From Chitinophagaceae bacterium (GTDB lineage Bacteria; Bacteroidota; Bacteroidia; Chitinophagales; Chitinophagaceae), in contig JAOQAL010000809.1 of assembly GCA_025963615.1 (NCBI GenBank), positions 1 through 10,395 on the forward strand: DNA of 10,395 nt, in the 5' to 3' direction. Positions 6,550 through 10,395 of the stretch are shown here, piece after piece. Under the pieces are notes generated by a model. The model made no database searches. It was not told the origin of the DNA and saw nothing but the letters and a program-made list of their open reading frames with translations. Made by a program: the position numbers and the translations under genes. The number at the start of each line of letters is the position of its first letter. Position 1 is the stretch's first letter.

Positions 6550-6642
6550 CGGTGAGGGAGGGATTCGAACCTCCTCCCCTATATCGTTGTAAATTAGTAT
6601 CTTATGCTAACGTCAACCAATTGAACTACACGAATAACTCAC
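6550..6642 (-). tRNA. Degenerate tRNA-like gene (possible tRNA pseudogene or att scar)
   Basis: The minus strand carries GTAGTTCAATTGGTTGAC, a D-arm-like segment, and GGAGGTTCGAATCCCTCC, a T-arm with the canonical TTCGAAT loop (6563-6569). CCTCACC and a G discriminator follow (6557-6550), without encoded CCA. The fold is poor. The T-stem pairs perfectly only with an 8-nt loop, as if one base were lost. The 7 nt before the D-arm (ATTCGTG) do not pair with CCTCACC. A 5-bp match GTGAG (6642-6638) to CTCAC does exist but leaves an 11-nt gap before the D-stem. An arm GTTAG/CTAAT holds a 9-nt loop with AAG at its centre, followed by a long variable-like stretch as in Leu/Ser tRNAs. I cannot assign an amino acid. 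A promoter box lies upstream and a terminator downstream, so it may be transcribed. tRNA 3' ends are common integration sites, which fits the neighbouring mobile cassette. Confidence 0.45.
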
Positions 6643-6672
6643 TTTTCTTCCGGGTATCTCAAATCGTTAATA

Positions 6673-6835: not shown

Positions 6836-6985
6836 TTAAAGTTCGAGGACAATACTATCCTGACATTCAGCAGTTTCGGCTTCTACCTTTTTCATATCCT
6901 CGAATACTTATTTTTGACCGTGTTCGTCCGCAATAATGATGGCATGCTCCGAACCACCAAATGTTTCAATTACTATATAACTCAT
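6836..6985 (-). pseudogene. Small PRTRC-linked ORF split by an in-frame stop
   Basis: ATG at 6985 overlaps the stop of the 62-aa gene (ATGA). It encodes MSYIVIETFGGSEHAIIIAD and five more residues to Lys25, then an in-frame TAA (6910-6908). The same frame continues with VFEDMKKVEAETAECQDSIV and LEL before a second TAA (6838-6836). The continuation reads as one protein: strand-strand-acidic helix-strand, 48 residues plus the stop codon. Small proteins of about this length and pattern occur near PRTRC genes in Bacteroidota, by my recollection. The simplest reading is a recent nonsense mutation. A 25-aa product or readthrough are alternatives. It ends the operon just before the terminator. Function unknown. 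Confidence 0.6.
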
Positions 6986-7170
6986 AGCTGTATTAATTTT
7001 TGATATACATCTTCCCAATACGCCTGCAACCGCTCATCCGCATTTTGGAATTGTGGGTCAAAATGCCTGTAATGGCGATAATCATCCGCCTGCATAATCG
7101 CTAATTGCAGATTGTCAATTTCCAACTCGAAACCGTTCAAATCAGTTATTTTAAATGGGTGGTCTTTCAT
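6982..7170 (-). CDS. 62-aa conserved small protein after PRTRC ThiF
   Basis: A 62-aa acidic protein: LNGFELEIDNLQLAIMQADD, then YRHYRHFDPQFQNADERL and a Trp/Tyr helix AYWEDVYQKLIQL. Its ATG overlaps the ThiF stop by 4 nt (ATGA), and its own stop overlaps the next ORF's ATG in the same way, so it is translated as part of the operon. The two predicted parts are a short strand region (residues 1-20) and one or two amphipathic helices. There is no signal peptide, Cys or metal motif. I recognise it only as a small gene often found beside PRTRC ThiF in Bacteroidota; no function is known to me. The tight coupling suggests a partner or adaptor of the ThiF/PRTRC-B pair (inference). Confidence 0.75.
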   Translation of the reverse strand: MKDHPFKITDLNGFELEIDNLQLAIMQADDYRHYRHFDPQFQNADERLQAYWEDVYQKLIQL

Positions 7171-7988
7171 GCTACTTTCAATGGCTGTGTCCTGAAATCT
7201 TTGAGGTTCAAAAAGAAACCTCTGTTAAACAACATCCCCTCCCGAAACAATTGCCACAGTAGTGACGCGCCTATATTTGCCAAAGCGGAATTGATAAACA
7301 AATCTTGCTTGCTCAACGCTTCTGCAAGAGAGCAACTGGGCGTATTATCGCCTGCTTCTGATGCGTTTAGCAATTCATAAAATTCATCCGTAATCATTGG
7401 CAATTGTTCAATCGTGCGGTACTGTTTGGAATCGGGTTGTTTGATTTTACCAATGGTGGACAGAATAACCTGACCTGTTTCTTTACTATTTCCGAAATCC
7501 ATATAATAGAGCGGTTGGCTACGGTTGTTGCTCATATTCTTATTCAACCTTTTAAGGATTTGTGCTATCTCCTGTCTTGACTGTACGGTGTCTACACAAC
7601 CAATAGTAATGGTTGCCCATGAGGCGTCACCGATACCGCTATACGTTTTATTGTACTTTTCGGCAACTGCTTTCCAGTTCGTTCCAAAAAATCGGTTAAT
7701 GCGGTTTATTAAAGCGACTGACTTGTGCAAACCCAATTCGGCGGTGGTAAATAATTGCCGTCCCAAATTGGCTTTGTTCACGGTATCATCGTCAAATACC
7801 CTGACCATCAAGCCGGGATGGTTTAGCGCAATTAAAGCCTGGTTCATCCTTGCCAATGCGGTCAATACCTGACCGCCCGTACCCCCTGCCCCAAGCAAAT
7901 TAATCGTTACAGGATTATAAGGTTGTAAGATTTCTTTGCCCACGATATGGACTGCGGTCTTATCATTGTTGATATTTTGCTTTTTCAT
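7167..7988 (-). CDS. PRTRC system ThiF-family (E1-like) protein
   Basis: The product is 273 aa. It carries the E1/ThiF Rossmann ATP-binding motif LLGAGGTGGQ (31-40) and acidic FDDDTV (65-70). NKANLGRQLF (71-80) supplies the conserved Arg77-Gln pair, Lys89 follows in GLHKSVAL, and TIGCVDTVQSR (128-138) matches the strand after the adenylation site. NTPSCSLAEALSKQDLFIN (215-233) is a block I associate with PRTRC ThiF proteins; Cys219 is a candidate thioester cysteine, unproven. E1-like enzymes adenylate the C-terminal Gly of a ubiquitin-like protein and pass it to a Cys. The likely substrate here is PRTRC-C and the likely acceptor PRTRC-B. The ATG overlaps the PRTRC-B stop by 4 nt. Length and motifs look intact. 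Cytosolic. Confidence 0.92.
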   Translation of the reverse strand: MKKQNINNDKTAVHIVGKEILQPYNPVTINLLGAGGTGGQVLTALARMNQALIALNHPGLMVRVFDDDTVNKANLGRQLFTTAELGLHKSVALINRINRFFGTNWKAVAEKYNKTYSGIGDASWATITIGCVDTVQSRQEIAQILKRLNKNMSNNRSQPLYYMDFGNSKETGQVILSTIGKIKQPDSKQYRTIEQLPMITDEFYELLNASEAGDNTPSCSLAEALSKQDLFINSALANIGASLLWQLFREGMLFNRGFFLNLKDFRTQPLKVA

Positions 7989-8725
7989 CTGATAATGTCC
8001 TTTAAAGTTTTACCGTTTTTTATGAGTTCAGCCTGCGGAAAGTCCCGTCCAGCGCCGACCTGCTCTTGCCATAATTGAATGAGATTGCCTTTGCAATGCC
8101 GATGGTTACCGAGCGTATGCGTAAAATAACTGTTAAAGAAATAGTTTTGCCATTGCGCCATGAACTGCTCCAAACAGGTTTGCCTGTCAATATTCACATT
8201 AACCGTTCCCATGCAAACGCTACCATCCTGTGAGAGGTTAAATAAAGGTGCATAATAAAGCGGTGTATCGGCGCTGGGCTTTGCCTTGCCTTTCAACGCA
8301 AACACCTGTAAACGTTCTTTTGTAGCTTTCCACAGTATGGCGGGTATTTTGGTTTTACCCGATGCGATACCTAAACTATCACTAAAGAACAAGTCGGTTT
8401 CCTGTGGCGGGGTATGCCAAACCGCATATCCGTTATTTTGGCTTCTAACATGGATTAAGGTCGGTGGTATCATCCCCTTACATTGCAGGTAATTGTTTTG
8501 GATTTCCTGTGAAGATTGCAGTAATTCGCTCAAAGCATACATTTCGTTCAGCGATAACGGATGCGCATTGATAGGATTACCTTGTTTGCTAATGTCATAA
8601 CTTTCGACATAAATCTCTGTCGGTTTCCGTTCGTAATTATCGCTTTCCTGTTCGGCAGACTGATATATCAGCAAGGCTTTTACAGGCGTGTACTCTTCAT
8701 TAAATTGTTGGCTCACGTTGTTCAT
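7985..8725 (-). CDS. PRTRC system protein B, E2-like
   Basis: The product is 246 aa, matching PRTRC-B in layout. The N-terminal strands are KALLIYQSAEQ (16-26) and TEIYVESYDI (36-45); PPTLIHVRSQNNGYAVWHTP (87-106) is the middle; WKATKERLQVFALKGKAKP (132-150) leads to the core motif YYAPLFNLSQDGSVCMGTV (157-175). The C-terminus is a helical region (QWQNYFFNSYFTH, about 191-203). In the core motif Asn163 precedes Cys171 by 8 residues with DGSVC before it, the same spacing as HPN...NGSIC in ubiquitin E2 enzymes. I infer an E2-like role with Cys171 as acceptor. It lies between the unknown 8700-9803 gene (26-nt overlap) and ThiF (4-nt overlap). No ATG other than the one at 8725 suits the start, as the next in-frame Met is inside the core fold. 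Confidence 0.9.
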   Translation of the reverse strand: MNNVSQQFNEEYTPVKALLIYQSAEQESDNYERKPTEIYVESYDISKQGNPINAHPLSLNEMYALSELLQSSQEIQNNYLQCKGMIPPTLIHVRSQNNGYAVWHTPPQETDLFFSDSLGIASGKTKIPAILWKATKERLQVFALKGKAKPSADTPLYYAPLFNLSQDGSVCMGTVNVNIDRQTCLEQFMAQWQNYFFNSYFTHTLGNHRHCKGNLIQLWQEQVGAGRDFPQAELIKNGKTLKDIIR

Positions 8726-9803
8726 GGTCGTAGTGGTTTAACAGTCTGCTTAATTCATTTATCAATTCAAACAGGCGGGTTTCAAAATCAAAATCAGGTG
8801 TTGTATTTAGGGGCGGATAATCAAATAACTGTACATGGGCGGGTTCGTCCATATAGGCGATTTCCTGAAAGTGGTTGTCTATCATCTCAAACAGGCAGTC
8901 CTGAAAACAATCGTTACCGCTCCAGTAAAAGCTGATGTACTGGTCGGCGTAGATACGATCCTCGTCCTGCGGGTATAGCAGGTCGGAATGAATATGGTCG
9001 AATACGGAACGTTCAGGATATTGCATGTAAAGCTGTAAAAACTTCACCGCCATTTCAAGCCAATCATTTTGCCAATTTTCTTTGCATTGAAAATTTTGCA
9101 CAACCCTTTCAAAATCAATCAGTCGTTGCGGTTCGATGATTTGCTGGTAGATTTTCAACCCTGCATTTTGCATGGTGTACAATTCATCCAATTGTATGTT
9201 CCTGTATTTTTCGTCCTCTTGGTCATCGTTTACCCATTGTTCCAATGTTTCATACTGGCTTGCCAAATAACTGTCCTGTTCGGTATAATAAGGCACTTTG
9301 ACAACCTGTTCCAAATAGGCGAACACAGCAATGATAAGCTCGGCTAATGGTTGGCTCTGACTGCATTGCACCCAATGCCATAACGGGCGGACAGGGATAT
9401 AATACAAGGTCATGTTGGTGTCAAACCGTTTCAACGTAGCAAGGGTGGCAATATGTCTTTCGTCTTTCGCAATGATACAGGATACTTTGTTATCAACCGC
9501 TTTTAGCTTCTCGGAAAGCACTTGCTGTGTTTGGTAGATATAATGCGGAAAACTGCCTTCTAACGTTTCGGGTATCGGCAATTCATAGTACTTACACAGG
9601 ATGGAAAGGGAGCATAAAAACTCCCTTTCTGCCCCTGCCCTATTATCGTTATACTGCCAAAACGGTTTAAATTGATGCCTTAAAAAACCATTTCGGTTAG
9701 TTCGGCGGGTGCGCTCCGCATAGGATTGCGTTGCACCTCGTTTGCATCGGGTAAGCGGTTTAATTTGTCCACTAATGCTCCGAATTGCTGTTGTATTTGC
9801 CAT
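8700..9803 (-). CDS. Large PRTRC-operon protein of unknown function
   Basis: The frame is 367 aa from the ATG at 9803, which has an AAGGAG 8 nt upstream. However, residues 1-40 look like a shadow of the overlapping 58-aa gene. Convincing protein sequence starts near residue 41 (RHQFKPFWQYNDNRAGAERE). No usable start codon lies there, so the true start is unresolved: see the T6 finding. The body is soluble, mostly helical, rich in Trp/Tyr/Gln and acidic: EFLCSLSILCKYYELPIPET, then ATLKRFDTNMTLYYIPVRP and WHWVQC, then long acidic helices (YETLEQWVNDDQEDEKYRN) and a C-terminal DFDFETRLFELINELSRLL. No signal peptide, membrane helix or catalytic motif is visible. The stop overlaps PRTRC-B by 26 nt. 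I do not recognise a family beyond its place in Bacteroidota PRTRC loci. A structural or scaffold role is only a guess. Confidence 0.75.
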   Translation of the reverse strand: MANTTAIRSISGQIKPLTRCKRGATQSYAERTRRTNRNGFLRHQFKPFWQYNDNRAGAEREFLCSLSILCKYYELPIPETLEGSFPHYIYQTQQVLSEKLKAVDNKVSCIIAKDERHIATLATLKRFDTNMTLYYIPVRPLWHWVQCSQSQPLAELIIAVFAYLEQVVKVPYYTEQDSYLASQYETLEQWVNDDQEDEKYRNIQLDELYTMQNAGLKIYQQIIEPQRLIDFERVVQNFQCKENWQNDWLEMAVKFLQLYMQYPERSVFDHIHSDLLYPQDEDRIYADQYISFYWSGNDCFQDCLFEMIDNHFQEIAYMDEPAHVQLFDYPPLNTTPDFDFETRLFELINELSRLLNHYDHEQREPTI

Positions 9804-9856
9804 TCTCTGTTCTCCTTTTTAATTCTGACTACTCTGTTTTTTTGTTCCTTTTTCAT
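9680..9856 (-). CDS. 58-aa ORF between PRTRC-C and the large unknown gene
   Basis: ATG at 9856 lies 3 nt after the PRTRC-C stop, with AAAGGATAAACC just upstream as a weak Shine-Dalgarno. The product runs MKKEQKNRVVRIKKENREWQ, then IQQQFGALVDKLNRLPDANE, and ends RSAPAELTEMVF. It has a basic N-terminal half that should form a helix, then an amphipathic helix (FGALVDKLNRLPD) and an Ala/Pro tail. It overlaps the annotated 5' part of the large downstream gene in another frame and is the better coding choice there, because its composition looks like a real protein. Its last codons ATG-GTT-TTT-TAA include a T6 run; one more T would join it to the downstream gene in one frame. It could be a free small protein or the N-terminal part of a 385-aa fusion. 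Function unknown. Confidence 0.6.
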   Translation of the reverse strand: MKKEQKNRVVRIKKENREWQIQQQFGALVDKLNRLPDANEVQRNPMRSAPAELTEMVF

Positions 9857-9859
9857 GGT

Positions 9860-10075
9860 TTATCCTTTATGCCCCATCGTGCTTTCAAAGCGGTACTGAA
9901 CTTCATCGTCCTTAATTTCAGGGCCGATGATTTTCGCATTGGTCAGTACGGGGTAATTAGCGGAATAGAAATTCTGTACATCACTTGCGGTAAATTCCGC
10001 ACCGGGGTCTGCCAAACGCACTTCCTGCCCGTTTTCCTTATGCAGAAACACCCTTTTTAATTCGTTGACTATCAT
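9860..10075 (-). CDS. PRTRC system protein C, ubiquitin-like
   Basis: The product is 71 aa, the usual size of PRTRC-C. Strands LKRVFLHKENGQEVRLADP (6-24) are followed by a helix in the block TASDVQNFYSANYPVLTNAK (29-48). Then come IIGPEIKDDEVQYRFES (49-65) and the tail TMGHKG. The layout (hairpin, helix, YP, GPE, strand, G-x-K-G end) is that of the PRTRC-C family. A single exposed C-terminal Gly and the nearby E1-like ThiF fit a ubiquitin-like modifier that is ready for activation without trimming. It starts 16 nt after the stop of the PRTRC-E remnant, and its stop is 3 nt before the next ORF. Whether it is attached to other proteins is inference. Cytosolic. Confidence 0.88.
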   Translation of the reverse strand: MIVNELKRVFLHKENGQEVRLADPGAEFTASDVQNFYSANYPVLTNAKIIGPEIKDDEVQYRFESTMGHKG

Positions 10076-10091: not shown

Positions 10092-10284
10092 TTAAACTTC
10101 CTGTAAACTGGCGTAAAGTGCCTGACGTTTCTCTAATTGCTCCTGCTTGGTCTTGATTTCATCTGCCTTGTCAGGATATTCTTTTGGATCGGGCAATTGC
10201 GAAAGCGCTTCCTTGTATTTCATATCCGTATTCAACTGGCTTACTCTTTGCATCGCTTCATCATACAGCTGTATATTATGGAGA
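10092..10284 (-). pseudogene. PRTRC system protein E, 3' remnant
   Basis: The minus frame ending at TAA 10094-10092 encodes about 64 residues: HNIQLYDEAMQRVSQLN, MKYKEALSQLPDPKEYPDKA, and DEIKTKQEQLEKRQALYASL then QEV. This matches the C-terminal helical tail of PRTRC-E, with the DPKEYPD turn and the Lys/Glu/Gln helix. The N-terminal domain is missing. Upstream of about 10285 the sequence changes to IS21-like repeats, and the frame meets an in-frame TAA at about 10325. There is no start codon except an internal ATG. The gene therefore seems to have been cut by an insertion. Downstream genes keep their close spacing, so their transcription may now depend on a promoter in or beyond the insertion. 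Confidence 0.7.
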
Positions 10285-10395
10285 TGTTGACCACCCTGTT
10301 CCGGGCCAAATTGACCACTGGGTTAGCTGACTTTTGGGTTGAAGCAAATGCTATAAAAGCATGTACAAAAATAGTTATTTAAAAGGTAATTTCAT
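10285..10395. mobile_element. End of an IS21-family-like element (continues past window)
   Basis: From TGTTGACCACCC (10285) the plus strand has spaced copies of TTGACCAC (10287-10295 and 10311-10318), and perhaps a third degraded copy (TTAGCTGAC, about 10323-10331), separated by CCGG-type words. IS21-family termini usually begin with TG and carry two or three such internal repeats, and my recollection of Bacteroidota members includes TTGACCACC. The remaining bases to 10395 are AT-rich without a usable frame, and no istA/istB sequence is inside the window. The assignment rests on repeat pattern and on the interruption of PRTRC-E at the same point. Confidence 0.5.

Follow-up and report, generated by a model that had tools for sequence, protein, structure and literature searches.

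A JAB-less PRTRC operon of the Bacteroidota and the ubiquitin-like conjugation cascade it may encode

The stretch of DNA considered here, referred to as the window, is one entire contig of 10,395 bases from a Chitinophagaceae genome bin that consists of 835 contigs and is 79% complete. It carries on its minus strand a PRTRC operon, whose closest named relatives are found in Mucilaginibacter and which includes genes for a ubiquitin-like protein (Ubl), an E1-like enzyme and an E2-like protein. The genes follow one another as the 3' part of PRTRC-E, PRTRC-C, a conserved open reading frame (ORF) of 58 amino acids that will be called x58, an F-like gene, PRTRC-B, ThiF and an ORF of 62 amino acids, with successive overlaps of 124 bases between x58 and the F-like gene, 26 between the F-like gene and PRTRC-B, and 4 each between PRTRC-B and ThiF and between ThiF and the last ORF. 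A first-pass annotation of this DNA had singled out PRTRC-C, PRTRC-B and ThiF as an E1-E2-Ubl-like triad in one overlapping operon. Its coordinates and reading frames for the three genes were reproduced, and the single minus-strand operon stands, with the correction that x58 and the F-like gene lie between PRTRC-C and PRTRC-B.

The E1-like, E2-like and ubiquitin-like proteins

ThiF, an E1-like adenylyltransferase of 273 amino acids (7167..7988, minus strand, as are all the genes below), belongs to TIGR03736 with 247 bits against a cut-off of 144.75, and is matched by the Pfam ThiF family as well. In the PDB its profile finds UBA6, UBA3, UBA1, ThiF, Cap2 and BubCD, the E1 enzymes for ubiquitin and NEDD8 being the best matches, and it also matches MoeB. 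The E1 motifs that the first-pass annotation had listed, Lys89 among them, read as described, and Lys89, Arg77 and Asp133 are each present in 21/21 sequences of a cross-phylum set, in which each protein is represented by the window and by 20 further loci, drawn from plasmids or phages of Bacteroidota, Proteobacteria, Deinococcus, Cyanobacteria and Nitrospirota. Equally constant (21/21) is Cys219 (codon 7332..7334), which stands in a PSCS motif, SC[SAT] across the set, and is the predicted E1 catalytic cysteine. It is retained by 103/104 ThiF frames in a Bacteroidota-type set of 106 loci (103 distinct, three places having been fetched twice, and some cut by contig ends): 99 of these frames read SC[SAT], TCS or NCS takes its place in four more, and the sole frame without the cysteine (L043) is a fragment that ends short of the site. 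Cys219, which the first-pass annotation had not named, sits where E1 enzymes, such as UBA3, hold their catalytic cysteine, so that ThiF is more E1-like than had first been claimed. ThiF and PRTRC-B are separate ORFs, and the NCBIfam model 6A-MBL cap2_3 gives only 17 bits against 320.

PRTRC-B (7985..8725, 246 amino acids) is E2-like, scoring 114 bits against Prok-E2_D (PF14460; cut-off 25) and 119.5 bits against TIGR03737, the latter below the cut-off of 131.45. Its predicted catalytic residue, Cys171 (codon 8213..8215), lies eight residues after Asn163 (codon 8237..8239), the counterpart of the Asn of the HPN motif, and this N-x7-C spacing is that of HPN and Cys in ubiquitin E2 enzymes. Asn163, Cys171 and Gly173 are each conserved in 21/21 cross-phylum sequences and, together with Pro128, are the only invariant positions in a 68-row alignment. 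The E2-type spacing first noticed in the window thus holds there, and P-x2-N-x7-C-x-G recurs in 103/105 Bacteroidota-type PRTRC-B proteins, the other two (L044, L135) retaining Asn and Cys with a shorter loop; the likeness to ubiquitin E2s stops short of the full motif, of which PRTRC-B keeps the Asn alone (Leu161-Phe162-Asn163 in the window).

The Ubl of the operon, PRTRC-C (9860..10075), scores over the cut-offs of both Prok_Ub (PF14454) and TIGR03738. As the first-pass annotation had read it, it is 71 amino acids long and ends in an unblocked Gly (GHKG-stop). This Gly71 (codon 9863..9865) is present in 54/54 rows of a cross-phylum alignment, in which Arg8 and Pro42 are the other invariant residues, and Gly is the last residue in 96/96 Bacteroidota-type PRTRC-C proteins and in 119 of the 120 nearest homologues; the end is mostly KG, not GG. 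The conservation that had been proposed as a check for Cys171 and the final Gly was found for both, and that of Asn163, Cys171 and Gly173 in PRTRC-B, of Lys89, Arg77 and Asp133 in ThiF and of the Ubl Gly is far beyond chance.

Predicted structures point weakly in the same direction, toward a UBC fold for PRTRC-B and a ubiquitin fold for PRTRC-C. In the structure comparison (VIA), rows 1-27 for the PRTRC-B model are all UBC and the PRTRC-C model matches mostly ubiquitin-like rows, in both cases with Z below 5.5, a range that the tool calls common; searched against the PDB by sequence alone, PRTRC-B and PRTRC-C found nothing relevant.

The missing JAB protein and the tails of the ubiquitin-like proteins

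An operon class of this kind was listed in 2006 as type 6d (Iyer, Burroughs and Aravind, PMC1779556). Its members as described there are a small beta-grasp protein whose C-terminal Gly is highly conserved, a mainly alpha-helical protein, an E2-like protein that has a Cys and, instead of the usual His, one further downstream, an E1-like protein, and a JAB protein whose N-terminal domain is alpha+beta. The operon type is recorded from beta and delta/epsilon proteobacteria, Bacillus, cyanobacteria and Bacteroides thetaiotaomicron. These components correspond part for part to those of the PRTRC system (TIGR03735-38, 41 and 42), and on that ground the two names are equated in this analysis. The first-pass view that the triad was undescribed has accordingly to be narrowed, B. 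thetaiotaomicron having been listed in 2006; it stands as far as biochemistry is concerned, since no experiments on the PRTRC/6d family were found in the literature searched, which left out some later papers by the 6d authors and on Bub (bacterial ubiquitination-like) systems. Within that literature PRTRC and ubiquitin are mentioned together only by an unrelated paper on Wnt modelling, and the "PRTRC" of PMC6436695 is, in the text available, the plasmid name pRtrCIAT. The available part of PMC10434189 lists the B. thetaiotaomicron E2-family-D and ThiF genes together as BT2648-49, and its iron-response table gives 3.6 for PRTRC-E and -4.2 for BT2648-49, with 0.437 and 0.352 in a second column; because these second values are taken as P values, the responses are read as not significant.

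The window operon resembles 6d/PRTRC in its Ubl with a C-terminal Gly, its E1-like ThiF, its E2-like Cys followed by a downstream His (His203, codon 8117..8119), a larger protein where 6d has its helical one, and PRTRC-E upstream. Unlike 6d/PRTRC, no Bacteroidota-type locus examined has PRTRC-A, the JAB component, between PRTRC-B and ThiF, the F-like protein has no Pfam or NCBIfam match, and the overlapping ORF x58 is additional; no ParB was seen on the contig, which ends inside PRTRC-E, the bin as a whole not having been searched for it. Because the JAB protein was not found, the operon is filed as a JAB-less variant rather than as a full member of 6d.

The lack of PRTRC-A extends over the Bacteroidota-type set, where a profile built from two PRTRC-A proteins matched 0/106 loci, with the duplicates and contig-end cuts mentioned above. 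Nor did any of 15 whole Bacteroidota genomes with PRTRC match TIGR03735; in a control, this model matched 9/9 JAB-bearing plasmid or phage records, eight of them over its cut-off, and 0/8 JAB-less ones. In 103/104 Bacteroidota-type loci PRTRC-B is followed directly by ThiF, and in the exception (L080) a short PRTRC-B frame leaves a gap of 153 bases before ThiF. The Proteobacteria records that hold all parts have the order ParB-E-C-F-B-A-ThiF, with A composed of DUF2016 and JAB.

In JAB-bearing loci elsewhere, PRTRC-C carries a tail after the conserved KG in 11/14, of 3 residues in Paraburkholderia, 5 in Cupriavidus and roughly 37-82 in most of the others; of the JAB-less rows tested, 0/17 have one (Fisher test, 4e-6 over 31 rows and 1.5e-4 with the Bacteroidota counted as one). 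For this comparison JAB was called by annotation in L050 and L158 and by a sub-cut-off Prok-JAB match in L148 and L051 (23.9 bits against 25), and its absence in L157 and L160 was taken from annotation only. Left out were two Deinococcus loci with no recognised PRTRC-C (L046, L145), a Paenibacillus locus with an E2, a weak JAB match and no recognised PRTRC-C (L159), and a Pseudanabaena locus (L161). In the Pseudanabaena locus (L161:3859-4322 and L161:5803-6087) PRTRC-C ends in PKG and is followed at once by its usual tail as an ORF of its own, PRTRC-A consists of its N-terminal part only, and tblastn found no ThiF in the 40 kb read.

A Cytobacillus plasmid whose JAB match stays below the cut-off, and which is one of the 11 tailed loci, carries a tandem of two Ubls (L051:2628-2969), each ended by AGTKG, with a final Phe. 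A protein search with this sequence returned ten proteins, the query included, all with residues past the last AGTKG; AGTKG ends occur two or three times in six of them and once in four, the gene neighbours being known for L051 alone and P0250 looking fragmentary. Tandem Ubls of two or three copies, with AGTKG at the end of each unit and a short tail, are seen in L051 and in P0242-P0246. In the available text of PMC1779556, tandem Ubls are described in operon type 6e. Tails after the Gly and tandem Ubls would both need a processing peptidase, and the pattern suggests that PRTRC-A trims the PRTRC-C tail and that lineages without PRTRC-A encode PRTRC-C in its mature form. What seems to be new is the Bacteroidota variant, which is without JAB and has a Ubl encoded so as to end at its Gly.

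The F-like gene, x58 and the remainder of the contig

Between PRTRC-C and PRTRC-B lies the F-like gene (8700..9803, 367 amino acids), the positional counterpart of PRTRC-F and of the helical protein of 6d, which is conserved in that position among the Bacteroidota-type loci and matches no family in Pfam, NCBIfam or PADLOC, PF14456 and TIGR03742 included. The same three collections hold no match for x58 (9680..9856), which starts just past PRTRC-C and overlaps the F-like gene, the latter being read in the -1 frame. Of 110 loci collected, 16 were excluded for having no C or F or for not being Bacteroidota-type, and the remaining 94 gave 88 distinct x58 frames; these loci are related, so that the counts that follow are no independent trials. 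The x58 frames end in VF (78), LF (4), IF (3), PF, AF or LY (one each), with the stop falling where the F-like frame typically reads GFL. Over the last 40 codons of x58 (82 frames with the full 40, six with fewer), the F frame contains a stop in 0/88, as against a mean of 76.8 and a minimum of 69 of 88 expected from synonymous reshuffling of x58 (300 runs); the +1 frame of the region has stops in 73/88, and with the F codons reshuffled, about 57/88 would have a stop in the x frame. The first ATG of the F frame before the junction lies exactly 40 codons away in 69/88, 58-61 in 18 and 39 in one. Furthermore, x58 is more conserved than the overlapping part of F (mean majority 0.59 versus 0.41), and its third codon positions vary most, with 2373, 1743 and 3914 changes at positions 1, 2 and 3 (289 pairs, 82 frames). 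Among 17 other records (L044 and non-Bacteroidota ones), those of Parabacteroides, Paraburkholderia and Cupriavidus have in this position a frame that ends in VTLF, LPIVF or LPMIF.

A programmed -1 frameshift that joins x58 to the F-like gene, suggested by the x58 stop falling exactly where F reads GFL, was considered as the principal explanation and rejected, the site not being uniformly slippery (TTT/TTC, TAA/TGA). Since the F frame is open upstream of the junction, the ATG spacing is regular and the x frame is constrained, overlapping genes fit better than a frameshift, even though both may occur at this junction, and these patterns make it probable that x58 is a genuine overlapping gene.

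The 62-amino-acid ORF (6982..7170), taken from the ORF list, overlaps the end of ThiF and is weakly like DUF7673; of 19 other Bacteroidota PRTRC stretches with which the window was compared, 8 have relatives of this ORF alongside. Next to the end of the operon, a tRNA-like stretch at 6550-6650 has the T-arm-like sequence GGTTCGAATCCC on the minus strand. As a tRNA integration (att) site the T-arm stretch near 6552-6640 was rejected, ARAGORN and Rfam having found no gene there, and the stretch could be the remnant of such a site. The rest of the contig (385-6308) encodes an MBOAT/DltB-like acyltransferase, a protein of 598 amino acids that matches no family over its cut-off, and an S41-type peptidase, with no PRTRC link seen.

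Outside the window, PRTRC is named on plasmids (PMC7466150, part available), 277 plasmid records in PLSDB match PRTRC-B at E 0.01, and a single chromosome of Mucilaginibacter sp. SMC90 holds four PRTRC loci (L068, L075, L076, L080). Multiple chromosomal copies and abundance on plasmids fit mobile carriage, and nothing in the window itself shows mobility. On a Pseudomonas rhodesiae plasmid, an IS21-family element lies between the F-like gene and PRTRC-B (L160:2236-4526).

The predicted cascade, its alternatives and its significance

Taken together, we consider it reasonably probable that the operon encodes a ubiquitin-like conjugation cascade, belonging to a Bacteroidota branch that is without JAB and whose Ubl is already ended at its Gly. 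In this cascade ThiF would use ATP to adenylate Gly71 of PRTRC-C, which would then be bound as a thioester to Cys219 of ThiF, handed on to Cys171 of PRTRC-B and joined by PRTRC-B to an amine, or another nucleophile, on its targets, with the F-like protein as a possible adaptor or substrate. Because PRTRC-A is missing and the Ubl already ends in a reactive Gly, we further infer, less firmly, that the Bacteroidota branch would require no trimming and would have no dedicated remover in its operon. A bolder version, in which conjugation in the Bacteroidota runs one way, with a tag that is born mature and no JAB, and in which x58 is a working part (adaptor, regulator or target), is put forward only tentatively. 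The interpretation of the first-pass annotation is thereby supported in part, and the observation on which it was built is confirmed.

Related systems place this reading in context. CBASS type II has Cap2, a single E1+E2 protein that acts on cGAS rather than on a Ubl, and Cap3, a JAB protein, and the window has no cyclase. Bil (bacterial ISG15-like, BilABCD) and Bub share with the window operon the arrangement of a Ubl, an E1 and an E2 in one operon, and the match of the ThiF profile to BubCD adds to the likeness with Bub. Unlike the window operon, Bil has a JAB protein, BilC, which in the available part of PMC11354881 cuts BilA and frees its Gly. PADLOC reported no defence system in the window beyond weak partial matches; ThiF had such matches to E1-E2 proteins and PRTRC-B and PRTRC-C had none, with a 2023 library that may miss Bub.

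Several observations weigh against the proposed cascade or parts of it. The His of HPN is missing in PRTRC-B, and His203, although invariant in a 51-row alignment, is not universal (16/21 cross-phylum). Foldseek found nothing significant for the models of PRTRC-B (best E 0.26) or PRTRC-C (best E 0.079); the UBC-like fold which the first-pass annotation had asked of PRTRC-B is suggested by the rows of the structure comparison and by no significant Foldseek match. Seven residues follow KG in P0129, one of the 120 nearest PRTRC-C homologues and one seen without its gene neighbours, and three JAB-bearing loci (L048, L149, L140), from Sphingomonas, Rhizorhabdus and Methylomonas, are tail-free. On a ThiF tree that held seven of the 106 Bacteroidota-type loci (the window and six others) plus L044, JAB switches state only twice and the tail does so three times, leaving one or two independent pairs and a non-significant sign test; phylogenetic support for the link between JAB and tail is thus weak, and with so few JAB changes and a pairs test without power, the idea of its independent evolution was dropped and no independence is claimed. 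Other Prok-JAB matches occur in 6/15 of the whole genomes, none within a PRTRC operon and the nearest 22 kb away (G095), so that reversal of the conjugation by an enzyme from outside the operon is possible. Finally, because PRTRC-E is truncated, the copy in the window may not be intact.

This last point leads to the alternative that the window holds a broken or silent copy, in which an IS21-like insertion sequence (IS) end interrupts PRTRC-E and splits the triad from its promoter. What is left of PRTRC-E (10092..10268) is a 3' part that matches PF19556 with 39.5 bits over model positions 122-169; its similarity to PRTRC-E of three relatives (L052, L054, L055) ends at about 10268, unlike DNA follows until the contig stops at 10395, and the bin, 79% complete, yielded no further piece of PRTRC-E. 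A motif at 10285-10318, which we presume from its likeness to be an IS21-like end, is found a single time in the genome, and 77 bases beyond it the contig stops. In view of the frames of PRTRC-C, x58, the F-like gene, PRTRC-B and ThiF, which are open and retain the invariant residues, of the outward promoter that an insertion can bear, and of the possibility that assembly, in a bin of 835 contigs, produced the break, we regard a broken copy as possible and lean against it.

The other two alternatives concern what the triad does. ThiF and PRTRC-C could work as a sulfur carrier in the manner of ThiF-ThiS or MoeB-MoaD, yielding a thiocarboxylate for a small-molecule pathway, with PRTRC-B as an E2-shaped accessory. 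These pairs share with the window operon an adenylation fold and a small beta-grasp partner, the ThiF profile matches both ThiF and MoeB, PRTRC-C has a short beta-beta-alpha-beta-beta form with two molybdopterin synthase chains among its VIA rows (22 and 40), and an Alteromonas plasmid has an annotated PAPS-reductase gene some 5 kb downstream. Nevertheless, the best PDB matches of ThiF are the ubiquitin and NEDD8 E1s, the records examined carry no rhodanese annotation near the operon, and JAB together with PRTRC-C tails elsewhere fits a protein tag. We know of no E2 partner in ThiF-ThiS or MoeB-MoaD, in contrast to the Cys and Asn of PRTRC-B, invariant in every row, and the end of PRTRC-C is a single Gly, mostly KG rather than GG; a sulfur carrier is therefore improbable. 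Conjugation to a lipid, a small molecule or a nucleic acid, as in the attachment of Atg8 to phosphatidylethanolamine through a single C-terminal Gly, would keep the cascade and change its target. Other bacterial conjugation systems with shown activity have, as far as is known, protein targets. The single Gly of PRTRC-C would suit such a target, and the Cap2 paper, in the part available, notes the single Gly of Atg8/LC3 and lipids as possible targets (PMC10097602). The same source has an active bacterial system conjugating to a protein, cGAS, and nothing in our analysis points to membranes, which makes a non-protein target quite improbable.

If the bolder, one-way reading is correct, the tails and tandem Ubls seen elsewhere would be precursors cut by JAB, in the way of eukaryotic polyubiquitin genes. 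The tail/JAB pattern predicts JAB cleavage after KG in the JAB-bearing relatives. The tandem Ubls would provide, outside operon type 6e, a bacterial counterpart to polyubiquitin genes. PRTRC operons are widespread on plasmids and chromosomes, and the compact cassette of the Bacteroidota, with a mature Ubl, one E1, one E2 and no remover, would offer an easy test case for a branch of bacterial conjugation that has long been predicted.

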